A stretch of 64,000 nt of DNA from Caenorhabditis elegans (taxonomy: Eukaryota > Nematoda > Chromadorea > Rhabditida > Rhabditidae), in NCBI RefSeq assembly GCF_000002985.6, contig NC_003279.8, positions 9,920,001-9,984,000 on the forward strand. The letters run 5' to 3'. Positions 28,203-59,660 of the stretch are shown here, piece by piece. Numbering within the stretch: position 1 is the stretch's first letter; every line of letters starts with the position of its first letter. Under the pieces are notes generated by a model. It saw nothing but the letters and a program-made list of their open reading frames with translations, ran no database searches and had not been told where the DNA came from. Both the position numbers and the translations under genes were made by a program.

Positions 28203-31200
28203 ATGCGAGTGGTGAGTCATTTTTTGATATAATTCTAAAATCAAAAGAAATATGATTCATTTATGCATAACGGGGTCAGCAGATGAATGACACCAGTTTC
28301 TTCATAATGAACAAATTTTGGTCAACAATAGGCCTGAGTTTACGTGATTGTCGAAAAATTAAAATAAAAGCCTGTTTTTTCTTCTATAAAAATTCCCAGA
28401 TCTGAAAATTCGTCATTTTTGTTCCAAGAAATACGGTACCCGGTTTCGAAGCGACCGATTTTCTCAAATGTAAAAGAGTGTGCTCCTTTAAGGAGTACTG
28501 TAGTCTCCAGTTTTTTTAAAACTGTTCAATTTTTCTGTTTTTCTAGAGCTAATCGAAAAATTGTAAATTTCTGCTTAAAATTTTTTAAATTGAAATCCAG
28601 TTTTTGATTATTCGGAAAATCGAAAAAAAATTTTAAAATAATAAAAACATTTCAAATTTTAACAAAAAATAATTTGATACGAGGAAAAAAGCCCAAAATT
28701 TGAAGTGATTTTTTTCGAAAACTCGTAAAATTTAAAATCCAAAAATAGTGTGCGCTTTAAAGGAGTACTGTAGTTCCCAACTGCTCGAAAAAACTTTCTT
28801 TGATGTCTCATAAGTTTCACCCTCCAAATTTTCTTCTTTTTTTTTCAACAATTAATAAAACATCGAAGAAAATTCCGCAGTGAGAAGATGAGAACTACAG
28901 TACTCTTTAAAGGCGCAAACTTTTTTTTAAACCGAAAATAGAGTGTTTTAGGTTTTTTTTTTGTTACAGAAAAAAATAAAATTCCTAAAATCTCTGAAAT
29001 TTCTGGGAAAATTTTTTATTTCAGATTTGAATAAACTAAAAGTTTTATAAAAATTAAAATGCTCACATTGTTTAATCTATTGTCAGTTTCAGCGGAGCAC
29101 ATGCAGAATGCCGGTCTCCCGAGCCACCGTCACAATCCTACTCGGAATCCTGTTTGGTTTCTCAATCACTTACTATCTGACGGCTCTCAAATCTCTGACA
29201 AATCCAATAATCTGTGGCCCAGAACAACAAATTGGCGGTTTCGATTATCTCGATGTGATAAGTCAACGTGCTGATGCTGATGTTTTCACAAGATCCCAAA
29301 GTCTTCCCGGTCATCGAAGGGGTCTGATTCTTGTGGCTATTATGACTGCTGCAAAATACGTTGATACACGTGCTTATAATGTTTGGAAAACATGGGCTCA
29401 ACACATTCCCGGACGAGTTTTAATATTTGTTGCCGAAGGAACTGAATCAGTGCATGAGGATATGCCATTAATTCGTCTGAAAGGAGTTGATGATACTTAT
29501 CCACCACAGAAGAAAAGTTTCGCAATGGTAAAATGGTTGGCAGAGAATATGGCTGATGAATATGATTGGTTCTTGCGAGCAGACGACGACCTCTACATTA
29601 GAGGAGAAGAGCTCGCTTTATTCCTAAGATCTGTCGATTCATCCAAAGCTCATATCATCGGACAGGCTGGACTTGGTAACAGTGCGGAATATGGTCTTCT
29701 AGCTCTTGGATCTACCGATAATTATTGTATGGGAGGACCTGGAATTGTTATGAGCAGGGACACCTTATTGTACGTTGTTTTTAAGAGAATTTGTGGGGGT
29801 TTTGTCAAAATAACTGAAACTGACTTCTCAACAAATTTCCAAATTTTTGCTAAAATCTAAAATTTCGTCATTTTTCCTTGTTGCAGCTGCTGAAATACAG
29901 TTTTATTAAATTATCACTCTTTCATTGAGTAATTTGGTAGTTTATCTCGCACTAATTCGACGATTTAGTCACAAATCGAATTTATAGTTAAAATATGCAA
30001 GAAAAAAAGATTTTTGATAACAACTATATTTCAGCTTCTACAACAGGGACAAATTGATGAAATTTAAGATTTGAGCAAAATTTGGAAATTTTTTGAGAAT
30101 TCTCACTATGAAATTCGACTGTTTCGGGGCAGTTTTAATCTATTTGATGAAAAACTCAAACCTTTTCTCTCTTTCAGTGATAACAATTATAATATTATAT
30201 ATTTTTCAGAAAAGTATCTCCTCATCTCGAATCATGCCTCCAACACATGCTGACTTCTCACGAGGACGTCGAACTCGGGCGGTGTATTCGAAAACATGTC
30301 GGTGTAGCTTGCACGTGGAATTATGAAATGCAAAAGTTGTTCCATAATAATCAAAGTGCAATCAAGGAGTCATATGCAAAAAATATGAAAGAATTGAAAG
30401 ATGCAATTACTCTTCATCCGATTAAAGATCCAGCTGTAATGAGGAAGGTTCATCTTCGAAATCGAGAAATTAAACTTCGTGAAGCACGAGCTAAACGAAG
30501 TCTTTTGAGTTCGGAGCTCAGTACTGCAAAAGCACAGACATTGGTACGAATGACACCGAATAGAACGAATGATTTGACACCATGGGAATATATTAATAAC
30601 AATAAAATTCTGTTTTGTGCGGATCGGGTCAATTGTCCTCGGCATACTGTAGATTTGAGTATTCGGACGGAAATGGCCGACACTATCACACAGGTTTGTT
30701 CAAAATTCAGATCAAGTATTGAAATTTTTAAATGCTTTTTTCGAATTTTCGGAAAATCGGAAACTCAAAAATTTTCGTATGTCTATTTCCAAATTTTCTG
30801 GATGCTACAGTACTTCTTAAAGGCGCACACTCTTTTACGCTATAAAATCGGCCGTGTCGAGACTGAGTTCCGTATTTTTAAAGCAAAATTCGCAAAAACA
30901 TTCGAGTAAATAATTTTTCCAAAAAACTATCCCATTTTCAGTTATTCGACGAGTTCAACACAAATGCTCGCCAAAGAGGTCGTGTTCTTCAATTTCAAAG
31001 TCTTCAATATGGATACATGCGTGTTGAACCTACAAAAGGAGTCGATTATGTTCTTGACATGTTACTTTGGTTCAAAAAGTTCCGTCCACCAAACAGAACA
31101 ACAATTTCCGTTCGAAGACACGCGTATGTTCAACAAACATTCGGAAAACTTCGAAGTCTCTCTGAAGGAGTGTTCCGATCAAATATGAGAGCAAACTCTA

Positions 31201-33562: not shown

Positions 33563-35834
33563 TCAATTGTTTGGGAGACTCGAAGTAGAAGGCAAAGATG
33601 AATCGGATGAAGTGTTTGCTGATGTTATACCGGCTTTCTTCACATTTTTCTGAATTGTTGTCATCATCAGAACACCGGCACGACCAGTCCAAGGAGCACG
33701 ACAAAGTGGACATGATGATCCTTCCATTGAACCTTTACGGGCTGCATACCAACGACGAACACAACTGAAAATAGTCAAATTAGGGTTTTCCTTGAATTTT
33801 CGTAAATGAGATTACGACGTTTTTTTAAACGTAATTCAGAGAAAAATGATGATTTAGTGAGAACTTGGGTCCACTGGAACTAGCGATTCTTTTCAGCTAC
33901 TCTCAAATGGTTTTGAATTTTTCTGATTTTTCGGAGTTTTTTATCTTTTAAAATTGAGGAAAAGATTAATTTAAGATCTCTGAAGATCACCATTTAATAA
34001 TATAAAAACTCACTCTGTACATCCAAGGAATTGTAGGCACTTTTTGCATCCTTGTGGTTTTATTGGTGGATTGGAACACATTGTACAATCTCCCCACGTG
34101 GAATCTCTGAAATGTTTTTATTTTTATCAAGTATTCTGGAAGCTTACGGGGTTATTCATGTGCTGTCGAAAATTACAAAAAAAAAATTTTTGTATATTTT
34201 GACGGCACATGAATAAGCCCATTATGAAGAAAGACTTACGGTTCAACTAGTTTTCCTCCAGCTGACACTGGTTTTGCAGCTGGAACGATATATTCTTCTT
34301 CATCATGATACAATTCTAGTTCATGATTGTACATGACACGATCTTCGTCGAATATCGGTTGTCTTATGTGATTTCTATCGGCATGAACTGCTCCCCTTCC
34401 ACCAATAATCAGAACATCATCATCATCACTTAGATCAATAACTGATGAACCATTTGATTGAGCTTCATCATCATCAGAATCTGCGTCTACATTCTCAGGA
34501 TCACTTTCATCTTCATTATTCAATCCAGAACGGTAAAGTGGATCTCTTCGTGGATTATCAGGATATATACGGGAATGAAGTAGATCACGTATATAATCTG
34601 CACTGATGTTGTGTTGGCCACTTCCACGATATCTTCCAGGTGTTATCACTCTACCACGGCCTCCTGGACCTCTTCCGCTTCTTGCATATGATCCTCTTGG
34701 ATTAAATGCACGTGGCATGTCTCTTTCTTCATGATCAGATTCAGCCTCAGAGTCTGCATCAGATTCAGATGATGAGATTGTAATCGTCGCATTTCGTTCT
34801 TCTTCTTCTTCATTGTCGCTCTGCGTATAATCACTGTCATCGTCGTCATCTGGGAAATAGGTTTCCGCCCTGGAAATTATTATTTTTTTAAATAATTCAA
34901 TTTAGATATTGATGTATTCTACTAACGTTATATCACGTATTTCATCTCCCTGGCGTACTTGAACACGATCTCCTTCAAATTGCATTTGAGGGTCTGCAAA
35001 AAATAATCAAATTTGTAAGAATGTTATCTATATGATAGTTTTCGAAAATATTTCAAAATTTTCGTAAAAATACTATTTTTTTCTGCTATTATAGGCTCAA
35101 AATATGTCCAAATAAACGAACAATTTCTCACTAATATTTAATGGGGATTCACAGTTTTGGAAAAATATTATTTCCAGCTTAAATCTCCAATTTTGCCAAC
35201 TTTTCCGTGTCGCAGAAACAGGAAATTAATTTTTATTTAAAAATCGTCGTATTTGGCATATTTTTTATAGCTTAAGCTAATATGTCAAATACGACAATTA
35301 TCAAATAAAAATTAATTTCCTGCTACTATATTTCGTACGGAATTTGAATATTCAAAAATAATTTAGCTTTCTTGCACTCACTAGGATTTCTTGTCTGGCG
35401 TGTCGAACGACGCCGGTTCGGACTCTCGGATATTTGCTGATTTGCACGTGTTCGATTCATCGTCGCTTCACCACCCCTTGCCGATCCTCTTCCACGTCTT
35501 GCAGACGTTGTTCCTCTGGTGCCTCGACCTCTGACTGAGCTGGATGAAGATGGTCCAGCATCTGACGTTCCTGCGGTGCTTCTTATCCGTGAACGTGAAT
35601 ATGGACTTGCTCTTTCTCGTGCTGCAGCTCTGTTTCGACCTCTTCTGGCAACTGCTGGTGGTGTATCATCGGATTGTTCTCTTTGAAGTCGTTCCGCTAG
35701 TTCCCGATCCTTCCTTTCCTGCTCTTCGCGTCGCCTGTAATCGATTTTTTGTAATATTTCGAAATCGCTTTGATAAATACTTACAATTGATCTGCACGAT
35801 CATTATTCGAACGACCATTACCAGAAGACGACAT
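33563..35834 (-). CDS. C4C4 RING protein, paralogue 1 (acidic, MIU-like)
   Basis: Six exons (35834-35785, 35734-35382, 34993-34927, 34869-34240, 34106-34014, 33764-33563) encode 464 aa. Residues 17-37 form a charged helix ending DRELAERLQREQ, which fits the MIU ubiquitin-binding pattern (D-x-x-L-A-x-x-L-x-x-x-Q/E). Next come an Arg/Ser/Gly-rich stretch and two acidic blocks separated by a GRGPGGRGRVI patch. SSVIDLSDDDDVLIIGG resembles a SUMO-interacting motif. The C-terminal RING has eight Cys and no His: C374, C377, C387, C390, C396, C399, C416, C419. Inference: nuclear ubiquitin ligase or reader. It is the first of three tandem paralogues on this strand; gap to the next is about 410 bp. Confidence 0.8.
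34148..34220. repeat. imperfect palindrome in RING paralogue 1 intron
   Basis: GGTTATTCATGTGCTGTCGA and TTGACGGCACATGAATAAGC form inverted arms around an A/T core in the intron between exons 4 and 5. It fills most of that short intron. Confidence 0.8.
35219..35325. repeat. inverted repeat in RING paralogue 1 intron
   Basis: CAGGAAATTAATTTTTATTT at 35219 and its complement at about 35305-35324 bracket CGTCGTATTTGGCATA and TATGTCAAATACGAC. The whole structure can fold into a stem of about 40 bp with few mismatches. Confidence 0.85.
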
Positions 35835-36245
35835 CGTCTTGGCTGACGGCCTACTATCACCTATTCCTAATACCTGAAATTTAAAAAAAACTGATTTCAA
35901 AAAGAAAACATTTCTTTAAATATGCGAAAATTATCATTAAGTTGAGAAAGGTCAAAGGAGATTGAGAGGAATAATGAGACCTCCTCCGAGAAGGAAAATG
36001 TGCGAGACCTAGTCCACGGCCATCCGGCCATCTTTTGCCAAATTCGGAAATATTTTGGCATTTCAGTTTTTAGAATATATGAGTGTTACTAAAGTATAAA
36101 TAGCACAGCTTGATAACTGAAATATGGGCAAGAAGAAATAATATTTTCAAAACGGATCAATATTTTATACAGATAATGCAATGTCAATATACAATTTGTG
36201 AAACGGTGGAATTTTCATTTGTTTGATTATCGATTTTGCTCTGAT

Positions 36246-38345
36246 TTAAAAACGACGATGAGCGATAGTACTTCTTTGCGAAATCACATTCATATTTGAA
36301 ACATCCGGTTGTCGAGACCATCTTCGTCGACAAAGAGGGCAAGATGGAGAAAGAGCATGATGATGCCAGTGAACAATGCATCTGAATAAATTTAATGTGT
36401 TGAAATTGAAATAATTGCTGAAAAAACTTACGCGCTACACCCAATTATTTGCTGACAACGATTACATCCTTGTGGCTCGATAGGAACTTCAAAGCACATT
36501 GTGCAATCTCCCCATGTTCCATCAGGAGTTCCTGTTCGAATAGGCCTGATTGGCATTGATGTGCCAGGACCATCTGAATAACTCATATAACTGTCCGAGA
36601 TTTCGGAATCAAAACTATTTTCTTCGTCATCCTCATCATTACTGGATCGACGATCAAACGACGTTGTGAATCTAAATAAACTTATATTTTAGATCTCTTG
36701 AATTTTTAAAAGTGGAGAAACCGAAATCTGACACAACTACCGAATTTCGTCATGAGATGTTTTTTAAATTGTTCAAAAAAAAAAGTTTAAAAAAAAGCTC
36801 GAAATTTTAGATTTTAACTTTGAACCACCATAACTTTTTTGAGAAACTTTCAGAACGTCTCATCACGAAATTCGGTAGTTTTAGGGCATTTTGGGACAAA
36901 AAGGGCGAGGTGTCAGATTTCGGTACTCCACCTTTAAACTATTGCACTATAAATACCTATTCTGGACCCCATTTTGAAGAGATCTCGTCTCTGTTGAACC
37001 TATGGGACTATCAATTGAATCTTCCTCGTCGTCATATTCACTATCCGAATCCCAGATGATCGAATCGCTTTCAGGACGGAATCCAGATGATCGACTATTA
37101 TTTGATCTAGGAAACGTTGATTATATCTAATACATTGGTTTTATGCATATCACCCCGGTGCGAAATTTTGTCGTTAACGAGTCTCGACGCGACAATTTTT
37201 TAAATGCAAAAATATGTGCGCTTTTATAGAGTACTGTAATTTCAAACTTTTGTTGGTGCAGAATGTTCATTGATTTTTTTTCTCACGATTTTTAAAAACC
37301 TTATTGGATTCCGTATTTTTCGAACAAAAATCAAAAAACGTCGCGTCTATGCAATATTACCTCCGTAGTGTTGGACCAGTATGTGATGCTACCGCAGCTG
37401 CGGAATTCGGCGAATTCGAGTCGTCGGATTCTTCCTCATCTTCATCATCCATGTCACTATCGTCTTCTTCCTCATCAGTATGAAAATGTAGTCGACGAGG
37501 ACCGCCTGTAACTAAATTAGACCTTCTGAATTCAGATTCTTCTTCATCCTCGTCTGTTATCTCGCTGTCTTCCTCATCATCACTGAACACAACTCGTGAA
37601 ATTGGTTCTCTAAAAAATGTTAATTTTCATAAGAAATGTGGTAGTCAAGGGTGTCACTTGATTTTCCGAAAAAAAGTATCAAAAAGAACATTAACAAATT
37701 AAATTTAGTTTTTATAAGGTAATGTTATTTTCTTCTAAAATAAGGAAAAATGATATTTTTTTGAAGTATCGGGAAAACGAAAAACCCACACACCCTTGAT
37801 GCGAGAAACTGTGGTTTACCGTCTTATTCTTGAAGCGATTTGGTGGCCTTCATGTGCTCGATGATAATTTTCTTCCTCTTCGTCATCCTCTTCATCTTCA
37901 TCACTCATCTCAGAATCGACATCTTCTTCGACATTAAAAAATACAGATCGATGGCTTGTTGGTACTCTGAAGAACTATATATTTCCAATATGCTCAAACA
38001 AAAATAAGTTAGAACTCACCTTACGTGTTGTGATGCATTTCTATTATCTATTCTGTCAGTTTCTCTTGGTGCAGAATATGTAGCATCATCGGAAAATTCT
38101 TCCTCTTCTTCATCCATCATTTCTTCATCGTCATTATCGCTGTCCAAATCCCAATTCCCTCCACCATTCGGAAAATCAGGCCTTTCACCTTCATTTTGCC
38201 GATTTTCCTGCTCTTGAATTCTACGTGCTAGCTCATAGTCTTCCATTTGTTGTTCATATCGCCTGAATGCTCGTCTTTGCTCTTCCACATCAACTTCAGG
38301 AAAACCTTTTATCCTATGTTGACGAGATCCACGCATTGGATCCAT
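36246..38345 (-). CDS. C4C4 RING protein, paralogue 2 (acidic, MIU-like)
   Basis: Six exons (38345-38020, 37966-37820, 37609-37361, 37106-36957, 36671-36432, 36381-36246) encode 415 aa with all phases consistent. TATTTCAG 12 bp before the ATG is a likely trans-splice site. The N-terminal helix EVDVEEQRRAFRRYEQQMED continues into YELARRIQEQE (D36-E47), fitting the MIU pattern. Most of the protein is acidic and disordered (runs of E and D). The C-terminal RING has spacing C-x2-C-x9-C-x2-C-x5-C-x2-C-x12-C-x2-C, identical to paralogue 3. Trp two or three residues before Cys1 and after Cys6 (IVHWHHH) are shared or nearly so among the three. Function is inferred as an E3 ligase; no substrate can be read. 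Confidence 0.8.
36711..36935. repeat. inverted repeat in RING paralogue 2 intron
   Basis: GTGGAGAAACCGAAATCTGA and CTACCGAATTTCGTCATGAGA on the left are mirrored by TCTCATCACGAAATTCGGTAG and TCAGATTTCGGTACTCCACC on the right. This is a foldback element of about 225 bp filling most of the intron between exons 4 and 5. Confidence 0.85.
37160..37345. repeat. foldback-family copy in RING paralogue 2 intron
   Basis: It contains GAGTCTCGACGCGACAATTT, GTGCGCTTTTATAGAGTACT and GTAATTTCAAACTTTTGTTG, one arm of the dispersed palindromic family, in the intron between exons 3 and 4. Confidence 0.75.
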
Positions 38346-38940
38346 CCAACTTGTTGACTGAAATATCAAAATTTGAAATTTTAGAGAATGCTAATACAAA
38401 TAACAAAATATTAAAAAGGAATAGTTACACCTTTAAAAAAGTGTCAGAATATCGACGATCATTTGATTTATCTCAAATAACAATTTTTCTGCTGAAATAT
38501 TTTCGAAAAATTGCTCAAAATGGGCGGCAAGTTGGTGATTGTCGAAAAACAAGCTCGATAATTCTTCAATACGATAATCAAATTTCAGGCTATTTTGGGC
38601 ATTTTTTCCAAAACTTCAGCTGAAAATAAAGATATTTTCAGATAAATCAAGCGATTGTATATATTTCGGCACATTTTGCTAATGAACTGGAACAGTAAAA
38701 AATCACCGCAAACAACGAAGAAAATATGTTAGAAGTATCATGACTAAAACATAAGTTGAGAAGACATCAATATTCGAAAATATATATACATGCATTCATT
38801 TTTTTGTGAGATTGGATTAAAAAATAGGCAAATAAAAAAAAACAGGCAATCTCCGATAATATAGTAATCTTAACGATTTTACAAGCAATATAGGTGAGTT
38901 ATATGGCACAAAACAATATGAGTTAAAGGGAATTTACAAA

Positions 38941-40084
38941 TTATTTGGAAGTTATTCGGCGCTTGGATCGACGAAGAGAAGACTGTTTTCTCACAGAAAT
39001 CACAGACATCTTCGATACGTCCGGCTTTCTTGCCCATTTTCGACGACAAAGCGGGCACGATGGTTTGGACGAACTGCGATACCAAATATCGACACATCTG
39101 AAAATTATATTTATGTTAATGTCGACAAAAACTGCTACAATTACTCTTCACATCCAATAATCTGTAGACAATTGTTGCATCCAAGCGGCGAAACCGGAAC
39201 CTCGAAGCACATTGTACACTCTCCGTGGGAGCCGTCTTGATTGCGTCGTCTGGGATGTCGATCTGTGATTCCGGTAGATGTGCTCGGCCCTTCAAAGTCT
39301 ATGGGAACGTGCTCCTGGTCATATGTTCTCGCATCATCGCCAATAAATGATTGATCGTTAGTGTTCGTTGGTGACGAATGATTTCCCGAGTCACCGCTGG
39401 TTCCACTACTGCTACTTGAAAGGTTTTCAAACTCGATTTCAAGGATGGGAGAAACTGCTCGACCCCTTCTTCTACGAATCGGTGTAATCGGTAGATTGGT
39501 TTGAGCAGTCGCTGACATTCTGATTGAGATTCTTGCAGAACTCCGACGTCTCAAGCCCAACAATCCTGTAGAAAAAATCGTAATCTCTGGCGATGTGGGT
39601 GATGCACGCTCTTGAGAAGATGATTCTGGTTGCTGAACAGTAGGAGGTACCTCTGGCTGTGTATTGGGTGCTGCCGGGATTTGATTTGCAGGATTATGTA
39701 TGCGTCGGCTAATATCTCCAAATCTCTCCTGTTCAGGGTTTGCATATCTCCGACGTCTCAAAACGGAAACCGGGCTCGCATTGGGCGATGCTTGTGGTTG
39801 CTGAACTGGCGGAGGTACTGGAACTGGCGGTGTGTTGGGCGCTGCCGGGACTTGATTTGCATCATTATTTATATGTTGGACATCGTGATCATGAATAAGT
39901 TGTGCAAAAGCTTGATCGTTCATCTGCTGCTCAAACATCTCTAACGCTCGCCTGTAAAATAATCAGGTACCGAATAGGAATACTATTCACAGTCAAACCT
40001 TTGTTGTTCCAAATCGACTTCTGAGAACGAAAAGTTCAACAACGATGAACGCCGTCGCCGAGACCTGCGTGCTGGTGATGGCAT
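38941..40084 (-). CDS. C4C4 RING protein, paralogue 3 (MIU-like)
   Basis: Three exons (40084-39999, 39951-39145, 39097-38941) encode 349 aa. An acceptor (TTCTCTTCCAG) precedes the ATG by about 11 bp. After a basic N-terminus, EVDLEQQRRALEMFEQQMND runs into QAFAQLIHDHD (D41-D52), matching the helix and MIU position of paralogue 2. Residues 60-130 contain two tandem copies of a Pro/Gln-rich unit (NPANQIPAAPNTQPEVPPTV and a similar earlier one), an internal duplication. The acidic blocks are weaker than in the other two. The RING, CTMCFEVPVSPLGCNNC onward to SCPLCRRKW, has the same eight-Cys spacing as paralogue 2. The tail is basic (RRSKRRITSK). The gene ends about 600 bp upstream of paralogue 2. 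Confidence 0.8.
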
Positions 40085-53577: not shown

Positions 53578-56286
53578 CTAGATTGGGCGAGCCTTGATCT
53601 GTCCGATACGTCCTTTCGCAAGCTGAAAAGATTATTTTAATTGAGAGGTTTAAAAGTGCCGGCAAAAAATTGTTTTAAAAAATTTCTTAGCATTATTACC
53701 GAGTTAATTGAAGCATCAATAATTTGAAAAAAAATCGAACAATTTTTTTTTACATTTTTTTTTCAAATTTTGTTGATGCCGATGAGGAACAAAAACCATA
53801 AATATTATTGTCTTCAATAGAAGAAAAATTACCAACATTTTAATTTTCTTAAAATAAAAAAAGCGGCACGCTTGGTGCATGGCTGTCGTGTTTTTTTTGT
53901 TGTTTTTTCGGACCAATAAAACAAAAAAAGGGAGAGGGGAAAAATTCGATATTTTTTTGTTTTTTTTTGGCTCAAAAGGTTTTTTGGTGACTCCCATGGT
54001 TGTGAGTGTGAAAATATTTTCTTTTAGTTGTTTCATACTTTTTCAATATGAAATATGAAAAATTACCTTTCGTTTCTCCTCGGCGAACATAGTCTTGTTA
54101 GCCTTTTTCTCAACTCTTCTCAGCTTTCTGGCCTCTTTTACAGCTTTTTTCCGCAGACTTCTCTGTTCCGGAGTTTCATTTTTTGGTCGGAAAGTAGAAA
54201 CAGTTGAAAAAACGCTTTCCTTATCATCATCATCCTCCATATCCTCATCATCATCTTCATCTTCTTCAGCAATATCCATCTCTTCAACAGCTTTATCGAA
54301 TCGTTTCAATGCCTTTCTGGATAAACCACGTGGCTCCTTGATGAGTGTCGGATGATTGTAGATATTAGTGTATTGAGTAGCAAATGATTCACAATCCCAT
54401 TTCATTTTCTTATTTGTACCCTCATCCACTTCCACAATCTCGTATTCTTCTTTGTCTTTGATGACTCCCTCTTCAATGAGACGCATTCGTTCACGTACAT
54501 AATGCTTGGCGAGCTGTAAAATTAAATGATGAATGAAAATAATTCTTTTGAAAAGTACTACCTCTTCATCATACTCTGCATTTGAAGGTCCTTTGTCATT
54601 TATAAGTTTGTGAAGTCGTCCAGCGTTCGGTTCAAGTGCTCCTCCAACATCATAGTCGTCACCATCAAGCTCTCCGATCTGAAAATTAATTCATTTTTTA
54701 AAACTGGGTCAGATTAAATCTCAAAAATAATAAATAAAAGTAGAATGTTTTCTGGTAACACATAATTTTCTTGAAGTTTATTTTTCATAAAAATGAGTTT
54801 ATTTAGAGGAAACCGAAAGATTGAAAAATTTTTTGAGAAAACTAAAAAATGTATGTTTCATTAAATCAAGTCTTGTTTATGTTGAAGATTATTTTATTCT
54901 AAAAAGAGGAAAACTTGCCAAAACTTAAAGAATTTTCCGAAAAAAAAACTAAAAAACGATAATTTTCGATTTTTTAATTTTTAAAAATTAAAAAATTTTC
55001 AATTTTCAATTTTCGATTTTACTGGAAATCTAAATTTTTTCGTTTTCTATGAAAAGCCGATAAGCGAAAAATTTGATTTTTTTAAAAGTTTTTTTTTGAT
55101 TTTCCGGAAAACCAAAAAATCTAAGAACAATTTTTTAAAAAAAATCTAGTCAAAAAATCATTTTTTTTTAAATCAAGTCTTTCTTATGGTAAAGAGAAAA
55201 AATTAAAAACATATCCTTTCATTCTAAAGAGAGGAAAAATGGCGAAAATTTATGGCATTTTTCGAAAACTGTTCGATTTTTAAATAAGTTTAATTATCAT
55301 ATTTTTCAAGCCAATAATTCTGAAATAATACCTGATCGGTGTTGTATTCACGATCCATGAGTTCTTCAAAAGCATTATCAATAACTCTTTGATCAGCTCT
55401 TTCAACTCTAATCTCTCCAACAGCCTCTTCTCCAAATAACTCGTCATCATTATAATCATCATACATCTCATCGTCTTCATCGTCATCCTCTTCTTCTTCC
55501 GAATCTTCACCTCGTCTTGTACTTCTATAAACTGTAGTTCTTTCATCAAGAAGACCACCAGCAAGTGTGATAAAATTATCTTCAAGTTCTCCGGTGTTAC
55601 GATCATCTGTCACCTCTTCCAACGCATTTGCAACATCTTCGTCAAAAAATTCCGGTTTCTTAAGAGCACCGACAAGTCCGAAAAGTGGTGGAGCTGGTGG
55701 GAATGCTGATGAACCACTCGTTTTGATGGTCGTTTTCTCGACTTCTTCATGAACATTTTCCAGCTTCATCGGCTGAAAATTTAAATGATTATTTTACCAA
55801 TACAAGAAGATTGTTTTTCGATTATGTTCTAAAAGAGGTGATCGAAAAATTGTTTTTTTTTTGATTTTCCGTAATATGGAAAACTTTTTTTTAATCATCC
55901 ATAAAATTCAATTTTATGAAATAATGTAAAAAATGCTGATTAAAAAAACATAGAAATTTTTTACTTAAAAGAAGTACAAAGACCAAAATTTTAAGCTATT
56001 TTTTGACATATCCTAAAATCTTTTGATTTCATTGAAAAATCGAAAAACAAACACTTTTTTTTAAGTTTCGGTATTTGATCAAATTGATTTTAAGATGACA
56101 AACCTCATTAACAGCTCGCATGTGCTGCAAATAATCATAATCATCGTCGTAGTAGACTCCATACTTTTGCTGTTCCTCCAAATGTTCTTGAGTTGGCTTG
56201 AATCGTTCACTTCTTTCCCTATTATCCGGAACCAATCGAAAACTTTGACTGGCTTTCTTATCAATGAATGCCTTCCTTTTACCCAT
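53578..56286 (-). CDS. LTV1 homologue, 40S ribosome biogenesis factor
   Basis: Five exons (56286-56104, 55772-55332, 54678-54562, 54513-54067, 53622-53578) encode 410 aa. The N-terminus MGKRKAFIDKKASQSFRLV, the segment DYDYLQHMRAVNE, the long Glu/Asp-rich middle (EDSEEEEDDDEDDEMYDDY), the motif FATQYTNIYNHPTLIKEP and the basic C-terminal helix (RKKAVKEARKLRRVEKKANK) all match LTV1. LTV1 binds pre-40S particles, helps shape the beak and supports nuclear export; its acidic middle is a casein kinase 1 target in yeast. It lies 450 bp downstream of, and in the same direction as, the eIF3c gene, so co-transcription is plausible. Confidence 0.92.
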
Positions 56287-56737: not shown

Positions 56738-59660
56738 TTAGAAGGCTCGTGGCTTTTGAGGATGACGACGTTGCTGACCACCTTGAGATCCCCAATTTCC
56801 TCGCTTTCCGTCTTGTCCTTGTCCTCCACGTCGTTCTCCTTGGTATCCACCAGATCCTTTCTGCTTATCTCCTTGCCGCTCGTTCCTTCCTGGAAACCAC
56901 GATCCTGGACCTTGATAACCACCACGTCCAGTGCGCGGCTCCAGAATTTGTTCATTGTTTTCGGCAAGAGTTTGAAGTTTGTCAGACAAGTTGAGAGCAA
57001 GCATTTGAAGTCTGGAAGGTTCAACACGGTGCATGATGAGACAGTCGGTGGGCTCGTCAAGTGTAGCCGAAAGTTCCTCTTGGATGATCATTTTACTGAA
57101 AAAATAAAAAAAAATTATGTACTGTCTAGTAAAATATTACAAATACCTGATGATGCTATGAACATCTTTCTTTGAAAGTTCGAACAAATCCGCAAGCTTC
57201 TTGAGCGAAACAGTGGCATAAACTGTAGAGTATGTGAGCAAATAAGTTCTGAGAGATTCCTCTTGAATACGTCTCACAACCATTCCCTTAACAGTCTCAG
57301 CGTTATGGAAAAGATTCCAGACCTTCTGGTTCATCTTGTCATTGACGATATAGTCTTGACACTTTTTCCAATCTCCATTCAACATTGCTTTCGATGCGGC
57401 GACAACATGTTCACGGGTATTCTCTGGTGGTCCAGTGAGAGAAGCTTTCTCGCTTTGCTTCAATTGGTAATGGAAACTTCTGCTGAGCATACGACGACGC
57501 ATTTCGAATTCGCAACTAGCCATGTGTGGAATTTCGAGAAGCATCGAACAGATCAGATAGACACACTCCATAAGTTCAACATTGATGTGCATATGATATG
57601 GAACTTGACGGGAACGATCAATCTTCTCTTGTTCAGCAGTCTTTTCGTGCTGACGAGTTCCAACAGCTTGAGCAAGCAACTCCTTGGCACGTTGGGTATT
57701 TTGAATTTCAGATAGTCCTTGATGAGCTTCGCGAATGAAACCGTGTCGGAAAGCGCAGAGACCGAGTTGGCAGATAGTTCTGTTGTAGAGGATTTGAGTG
57801 TCGACATCAGAATGATCAACGATAGCTTGCATGTGACTCATAAGAAGAAGATCTCTGGCGCGGTGCCACTTGTCATGAACAGCCAGATAGTAAACATGGC
57901 AGAGCATAGCACGTTGTCTCAATCGTTTCTCATCATCAAGTGTATAGATCTTATTACACAAGTAATCCATCAACTTTCCAGCATCCTCCTCATTTTGATC
58001 TTGATATTTGTAGTAGGCATGCTCGATGCGCATCATGTACACTTTGCAAACTTCGTGTTTATCGAAAATGCCAGAATCGTTACGAAGTTCAACGTACTTC
58101 TCGGCCTTTTCAATGAGTGAGCACATATCCTTCTCGGCCTTCAACTTCTCGATATAATCATTGGAATGACAATCGGCGTTTTGAAGAATTTTAGCCAACT
58201 CTCCGTCCAATCTTTGCACAGCAATCAGAATACTTCCTTGAATGCGATACTCTTGAGTGTCATCCTGCAAATATTAGGATTTTTATTAATTTTAGGAATG
58301 CAAGTATTACCTTCAGATTTTCATCTTCTTCAGCATATGTCACAGATAACTTTACACGATCAGTTCCGATGAGAAGATCGAGCAAGCTGTTGACGGTTTG
58401 CAGAGTGGTCATGAATGTTTCGTACTCCATGTGATCACTAATTTTAGCGTTCAATTCGAAAAGAGCCGAGATTATGCAGAAACTGATTTTAACGTTGATT
58501 CCTAGACCAAGTTCTTTCTCTTCCGATACCTCCAAAAGTTTTCGAAGATTAGCAACATGTTGATTACGATCTGTCGTTCGTTTTCCACGAGCCGACATAA
58601 CCTCATTGAGTTTCTTAATCATAACGTCATGAGTAACTTCTTCCTTGGGATCAAAGTGAACAACAGACTTCTCACGATTAACTGGAGTCCAATCCGCATC
58701 ATCGTCTTCCTCGACAGCTTCTTTGACTCTGATAACTCTCTTCTTCTTTTCTTTCTTGTCATCTTTGCTCTCCACGCGGAATTCTTTTTTCAAGAAATAC
58801 CTACGAAGTTGCTCCATCTTAGTCACACTGTCTTCGTCATCAGAAGAATTGGATTCTGGTTCAGAAGACCAGTTAGAGGAGTCGTCATCGTCGCTGTCAC
58901 TGTCACTATCGCTCACTGCAGCTTTCTCAGATGGTTTTCCAGGTGACTTTTCAGCCTTCGATTCAGAAACCTCTCCAAAATCATCGTCGTCTTCATCTTC
59001 TGGAGTTTCATATCCATCCTCGTCAGGATTAACGCGATAATCGGTAACAAGATCTTGCAGTTGTTGATCCTTGATGTATTTTTTCAGTTTTTGACGAAGA
59101 GGTGGAAGAGCTTTTGCGTTGTTCTTCGAAAGAGCAGATTTAGCATCTTTATCATCCCATAATTTATTTACGTAGTCTTCGATTTCCACAAGAGACCTGA
59201 AATATTTTATATCAACTACTAAGTTTTCATTAGCATTTTATTTTATGATGTGACTGTAAATTAAAAATATATCTCACCTTATGTAAAATCTTGGATTTGC
59301 GACATTCTGACGTTGAAAGACCGTCTTGGACTTATCATAAGCTTTGGCCAGAGAATCAAAACCTGTTAGAAGTCTGTTCAGATCTTTGTTGCTCTTTGCA
59401 TCTCGATTTTGCTTGATAATTCCTTTCAGCTCATCGAATTTTTTGTCCTTTTGGGCACGAACAACACGCTTCTCATCTTCTTCAGGACCGGCCATGAAAT
59501 CGAGATCATCGCTGAAAGATTAATCAATCTTTTGGAATTACTTTGGAGATTATAATTACCGAAATTTCGCGCTTTTGTTCACTTTTTGATCCTCTACCTC
59601 ATCCTCGCTGGACGAAGTGTCGGAATCAGAGTCCTCCTTAGCATGGAAGAAGCGAGACAT
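56738..59660 (-). CDS. eif-3.C: eukaryotic translation initiation factor 3 subunit C
   Basis: Five exons (59660-59560, 59511-59278, 59196-58311, 58264-57147, 57095-56738) encode 898 aa. The start MSRFFHAKEDSDSD is near-invariant in eIF3c. The N-terminal half has acidic serine blocks (VSDSDSDSDDDDSSNW) and a motif for eIF1/eIF5 contact. Residues from about 640 form a PCI domain ending in LADLFELSKKDVHSIIR. The tail is Gly/Arg/Gln-rich (GGYQGERRGGQGQDGKRG). eIF3c is part of the eIF3 octamer core that binds the 40S subunit. It is expected to be essential and broadly expressed. Confidence 0.95.

Follow-up and report, generated by a model that had tools for sequence, protein, structure and literature searches.

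A stretch of 64,000 nucleotides of the Caenorhabditis elegans genome (NC_003279.8, positions 9,920,001 to 9,984,000 of the forward strand; hereafter the window, to which all coordinates refer unless a contig is named) carries three consecutive genes on the - strand, gene A (349 aa), gene B (415 aa) and gene C (464 aa). Their products are probably E3 ubiquitin ligases of the RING type, with an N-terminal motif interacting with ubiquitin (MIU) as ubiquitin reader, a C-terminal RING with eight cysteine ligands (C4C4) as the acting part and a long charged linker between the two. The observations underlying this proposal are the gene models, the paralogy of the genes, the pattern of Cys, Trp and Arg residues and a helix with the signature Q-x3-D-x3-A.

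Gene models and the paralogous family

The three gene models and product lengths proposed in an initial annotation of the window were rebuilt exactly, with a single, terminal stop in each model and GT-AG borders at all introns (12/12). Gene A (38941..40084, - strand) consists of three exons (40084-39999, 39951-39145 and 39097-38941), gene B (36246..38345, - strand) of six exons that encode, among others, an acidic linker, and gene C (33563..35834, - strand) likewise of six exons.

When the first RING half of gene B, of gene C or of a further paralog, E, was searched against the genome, the identical six loci were returned each time, namely the trio and paralogs D (contig 4, approximately 12.7232-12.7246 Mb; modelled with 291 aa), E (contig 2, approximately 5.2130-5.2139 Mb; modelled with 226 aa) and F (contig 4, approximately 13.8344-13.8364 Mb; model partial). 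The second RING half of gene B found five of the six loci and missed gene C, in which this half is longer by four residues. The search with the N-terminal helix of paralog D yielded no further member and recovered D alone, so that the helix is unusable for finding members. An intron in the codon directly preceding the sixth Cys of the RING is present in all six paralogs. A second intron, in phase 2 and 12 residues ahead of an invariant Asp of the N-terminal helix, is common to A, D, E and F; gene C has an intron in the same phase 2 at 9 residues ahead of this Asp, and gene B has none in this position. Since the RING introns and the ends are shared, the six genes descend from a common ancestor and form a real paralogous family. 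The family had been described as locally expanded; the tandem expansion in the window was found again, whereas the restriction to a local trio was not, as the six genes are spread over three contigs.

The last exon of paralog F is not fixed, because two in-frame acceptors with differing Cys spacings are available. At the 3′ splice site of its last intron (approximately 13.83446 Mb of contig 4, - strand) the sequence TTTTCAGGTGTT is repeated, which makes several acceptors possible, and one frame is open throughout the intron; splicing variation or a decaying gene may be the cause. Upstream of paralog D, a long run of short repeats with LPELPELPKLPE...-like frames is located in the first 0.8 kb of the - strand slice at 12.721 Mb of contig 4.

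The C-terminal RING

By gene model and alignment, the RING extends from C274 to C315 in gene A (39046..39218, - strand), from C347 to C388 in gene B (36330..36505, - strand) and from C374 to C419 in gene C (33701..34087, - strand), with the intron of all three placed between the fifth and the sixth ligand (ligands are numbered C1 to C8 in the following). There are eight ligand Cys in all five clear models and eight or nine in F, depending on the splice acceptor. A, B, D and E have the spacing 2-9-2-5-2-12-2 and C has 2-9-2-5-2-16-2, that of F being uncertain. The spacing and C-terminal position given in the initial annotation are thus exact, and its statement that the domain has no His holds at the eight ligand positions and fails elsewhere, as four His lie between C6 and C7 of gene B and one between the first and the last Cys of paralog D. 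In an alignment of the six paralogs, for which one of the splice forms possible for F was chosen, the invariant columns are C, C, P, P, C, C, G, C, C, W, CPLCR, W and V.

The PDB search with the profile of the six RINGs was headed by Listerin (E 5.1e-4) and NSE1 (E 6.1e-4), and RINGs of Listerin, NSE1 and TRIM proteins were matched with E-values from 5e-4 to 3e-3. Among the best 60 of 120 matches, 46 were RING-type proteins, 13 were COX6B chains (from E 0.078) and one was SALL4, in line with the earlier assignment as RING-type. Profile-profile comparison with hhalign gave 96.7% for Listerin RINGs (n=2), 93.9% for NSE1 (n=2) and 92.3% for classical RINGs (n=3), small margins obtained with tiny profiles. 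With the RING of gene B alone, NSE1 was the top PDB match (E 0.014), and against the Pfam RING families paralog D reached 3.7e-5 (below the cut-off) and paralog E 4.3e-6 (at the cut-off). Several results weigh against a ligase RING: genes A-C stayed under every Pfam RING cut-off, the RING of gene C alone matched a cathepsin first (E 0.079) with ribosomal L33 in seven of the 20 matches, and one residue more separates C4 from C5 than in Listerin or NSE1. Taken together, a RING-type domain with C4C4 ligands is supported in the trio, and it looks like a member of the C4HC3-like spacing class with the His at ligand five replaced by Cys and one extra residue ahead of it.

The RING of NOT4, which also has C4C4 ligands, had been put forward as the comparison. 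Listerin and NSE1 are instead the nearest profile neighbours; NOT4 gave a weak match (E 0.77) and neither a NOT4-type RING nor an RNA recognition motif was found in the Pfam scan of genes A-C up to E 10, hence kinship with NOT4 was rejected. The family shares with Listerin (LTN1) the C3-x2-C4 arrangement, the Trp four residues after C6 and the CPLCR sequence, and differs from it at the fifth ligand, which is His in Listerin and is preceded by one residue fewer. Listerin moreover has a giant body, which is absent from the trio proteins. The NSE1 RING-like domain resembles the family in C-x2-C-x9-C-x2-C...C-x12-C-x2-C and in the Trp after C8, in contrast to which it has His at ligand five and no Arg following the last Cys; NSE1 additionally contains winged-helix domains. 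Because ligand five is Cys in all six paralogs and the remainder of those proteins is absent, membership in the NSE1 or Listerin families was rejected as well.

In active RINGs, the E2 enzyme is contacted at positions such as Ile383 and Trp408 of c-Cbl and at the linchpin Arg of RNF4-type RINGs. The predicted counterparts in the family are a hydrophobic residue (Met, Val or Ile) between C1 and C2 in 6/6 paralogs, Trp four residues after C6 in 5/5 clear models and Arg after C8 in 6/6, and an active ligase is therefore favoured. It is rather unlikely, by comparison, that the RING has degenerated to a zinc module devoid of catalysis and that the proteins are adaptors by which ubiquitinated clients reach chromatin or a different ligase. 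A module of this kind has been argued for the weakly active NSE1-type RINGs, and such an adaptor would agree with the NSE1 match of the gene B RING, with the C4HC3-like spacing and with the low Pfam scores of genes A-C. The E2-contact region of the family is, however, of the Listerin kind, with CPLCR and the Trp after C6, whereas the NSE1 fragments have CPHCN or CPNCN and Tyr in place of this Trp; Listerin is an active ligase.

The N-terminal MIU-like helix

Motif scan and alignment of the paralogs place a single copy of the strict motif D..[LF]A..[LI]...[EDQ] in every protein of the trio: at residues 41-52 of gene A (DQAFAQLIHDHD; 39882..39917), 36-47 of gene B (DYELARRIQEQE; 38205..38240) and 26-37 of gene C (DRELAERLQREQ; 35674..35709), all on the - strand and all where the charged helix had been reported before. 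In 5000 shuffles, the strict motif arose by chance within the first 60 residues in 0.22% (A), 0.00% (B) and 0.02% (C) of cases, and at any position in 0.12-0.28% when whole proteins were shuffled. As A, B and C are homologous, their motifs count as one event rather than three. In the alignment of all six paralogs, the invariant columns are solely those of Q-x3-D-x3-A, so that this core is kept also in the paralogs outside the cluster (D, E and F); its D and A are residues of the MIU core. Paralog D fits a loose form of the motif, in which the last position differs.

The helix of gene C, searched against 177,635 PDB sequences at E<=10, gave three matches, to Rabex-5 (2c7m/2c7n and 2fid/2fif) and myosin VI (2n11), and its core DRELAERLQRE differs from DWELAERLQRE of Rabex-5 in a single residue. 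With the profile of the family helix, five chains were matched, namely RNF168 (5xiu; E 0.65), myosin VI (2n11; E 1.1) and three DHT03 chains. 5xiu, 2n11 and the Rabex-5 entries are MIU structures, and the DHT03 chains are designed helical proteins. The MIU likeness formerly noted was thus recovered at sequence level by both searches, which are not independent, since the profile includes the helix of gene C. There are further points against a ubiquitin-binding helix: all matches are weak (E approximately 0.5-1.4, and 0.56-1.4 for the MIU proteins), the top match of the profile is a DHT03 chain (E 0.48) and no MIU, searches with single helices gave no PDB match for A and D and three for B, none of them an MIU (0/3), and paralogs E and F have Tyr preceding the Ala and have lost the motif end.

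That the helix is simply a charged coiled coil or serves dimerisation, its MIU likeness being convergence in a Q/E/R-rich sequence, was considered improbable. The helix is indeed rich in Glu, Gln and Arg, the E-values of its matches are about 1, DHT03 chains are among the matches too, and no MIU protein was reached with the single helices of A, B or D. On the other hand, both proteins matched by the profile apart from DHT03 and all three matches of gene C are MIU proteins, and the MIU residues D and A are among the invariant positions. A scrambled helix of gene C found no PDB match, one scramble being little control. In our view the matches are suggestive, not proof, of an MIU-like helix and a putative ubiquitin binder.

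The invariant Ala of the family presumably occupies the position of A179 and A450 in RNF168, as judged from the 5xiu alignment. According to a report in which MIUs are named in Rabex-5 and RNF168, the two RNF168 MIUs are inactivated by Ala-to-Gly exchange at these two residues, with binding to ubiquitinated proteins markedly reduced (PMC2699339). RNF168 resembles the trio in combining RING and MIU in one chain and differs from it in carrying its RING at the N-terminus and in having two MIUs (PMC2699339), while the RING of the trio is C-terminal and of C4C4 type and the MIU-like helix is single. Orthology to RNF168 was rejected, as the trio proteins do not show an N-terminal RING followed by two MIUs. 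Rabex-5 (RABGEF1), close to gene C in its MIU helix, lacks a RING of the trio type; it is an exchange factor for Rab5 and has a zinc finger that binds ubiquitin (PMC2699339).

The tandem SIM-like motif of gene C

A motif scan additionally revealed two cores resembling SUMO-interacting motifs (SIMs) at residues 300-312 of gene C (VIDLSDDDDVLII, i.e. VIDLS-DDDD-VLII; 34404..34442, - strand), which are new in this analysis and absent from the initial annotation. In RNF4, SIM3 is formed by V62-V63-D64-L65-T66 and SIM4 by V71-V72-I73-V74 (PMC4083429), so that the second core starts nine residues after the first in RNF4 as well as in gene C. The pattern VxDL[S/T]-4-VxI[V/I] of gene C is in the SIM3-SIM4 register and, as in RNF4, upstream of a C-terminal RING (PMC4083429). 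RNF4 differs in having four SIMs (PMC3901395), and the motif of gene C has more acidic residues and is closer to the PIAS VIDLT type. RNF4 has, furthermore, a classical RING and is not known to carry an MIU.

The RNF4 register by itself promises no chain binding, because SIM4 of RNF4 binds weakly and plays a minor part (PMC4083429) and because a SIM pair with a linker shorter than that between SIM2 and SIM3, presumably SIM3-SIM4, is reported not to engage di-SUMO through both SIMs simultaneously (PMC3901395). The PIAS1 core VIDLT is reported to be optimised for tight binding of mono-SUMO (PMC3901395), and the acid-rich PIAS-like motif of gene C would suit mono-SUMO targets.

Whether the site differs from a chance hydrophobic patch within acidic disorder, so that gene C would be no SUMO reader, is nearly evenly balanced, the SUMO reading having a slight advantage. 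The chance patch agrees with an ordinary count under the general SIM rule (two sites seen against 0.77 expected, a number reached by 18.7% of block shuffles), with a PDB sequence search of the SIM region that gave no matches, and with a scan of the five paralogs other than F, in which A, B and D had no SIM-like site and E had one, located after its RING. The more specific patterns, by contrast, are rare: a PIAS/RNF4-type core followed by acid appeared in 0.015-0.07% of shuffles and the RNF4-register pattern in 0.005-0.015% of local-composition shuffles (20,000 each) and in none with whole-region shuffling, both patterns having been picked post hoc; a looser tandem SIM pattern appeared in 0.4-1.6%. 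Gene C is accordingly presented as a candidate SUMO-targeted ubiquitin ligase, as a lead and not as a result.

Proposed mode of action

From the observed features we infer a zinc cross-brace, E2 binding, binding of ubiquitin and SUMO, and a mechanism of amplification. The MIU would most likely dock the protein onto an already ubiquitinated substrate or onto its own ubiquitin product, and the C4C4 RING would engage a loaded E2. MIU and RING together could extend or spread the ubiquitin on the substrate in the manner of RNF168 with the domain order reversed. The diverged charged linkers probably select the substrates, and in gene C the tandem SIM of PIAS/RNF4 type would suggest that SUMO-modified substrates are selected. 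As a whole, this extended model, including the tandem paralogs as sister ligases whose linkers choose other substrates, is doubtful and is offered tentatively, in distinction to the ubiquitin-reading ligase as such, which we consider probable.

Genomic context and previous reports

Upstream of the trio and on the same strand, a Pfam scan identified an ALG10 gene (PF04922), and on the opposite strand a Fringe-like glycosyltransferase exon (PF02434) at 29051-29860. These flanking genes fit T24D1.4, reported as ALG10 (PMC3651406), and T24D1.1, reported as chondroitin synthase (PMC1112593), for which reason the trio should belong to the T24D1 series; the assignment of the single genes to numbers is not established. 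A literature search found no mention of T24D1.2, and T24D1.5 did not occur among the matches listed. T24D1.3 is contained in a table of C. elegans E3 genes studied by RNA interference, with scores of +, - and - for the CED-1 level over three rounds (PMC9388098), and in a co-expression clique with egg-1 of the category embryo development (PMC8213770); the passages on T24D1.3 in these two papers do not describe a ubiquitin-binding helix.

The combination of MIU and C4C4 RING in nematodes was not the subject of any paper among the matches listed, which comprised titles and starts of abstracts, with most subscription journals outside the scope. Likewise, the literature on MIU, RING finger and C. 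elegans contained nothing on the trio genes by title or abstract start. The family looks little-studied, and appears to belong to a known kind of MIU-RING proteins.

C. elegans is a main model of SUMO and DNA-damage biology. A paper from 2013 reports that BLAST reveals no evident C. elegans homologue of RNF4 or SLX5-8 and that the SUMO of the worm seems to form chains no longer (PMC3861103). According to a paper from 2025, SMO-1 acts via typical SIMs, and on genetic grounds SMO-1-mediated proteasomal degradation of worm DRH-1 was proposed (PMC12635358); section 16 of this paper does not name a worm SUMO-targeted ligase. Neither such a ligase nor a worm RNF168 is named in the excerpts of PMC8527565, PMC4390335, PMC10778024 and PMC8161396. 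A small MIU-RING family, one member of which has a SIM pair in RNF4 register, provides named and testable candidates, and the family is moreover an example of a C4C4 RING on Listerin/NSE1-like spacing.

Further features of the window

In gene B, Asp and Glu make up 30% of the part preceding the RING, and the linker (37966-37361, exons 2 and 3) contains three related modules of a hydrophobic/aromatic trio and an acidic run, RSVFFNVEEDVDSEMSDEDEE, RVVFSDDEEDSEITDEDEE and RLHFHTDEEEDDSDMDDEDEE. Their pairs gave block-shuffle P values of 0.018, 0.009 and 0.001, the three lowest of ten pairs tested, and the modules are reminiscent of acidic motifs that bind histones and are anchored by an aromatic residue. 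At 54043-55793 of the - strand, another acidic protein is encoded, which we assume to be LTV1-like; its exon 54043-54690, the single exon scanned, had no Pfam match at 0.001. The gene adjoins that of eIF3c (57137-58273, PF05470).

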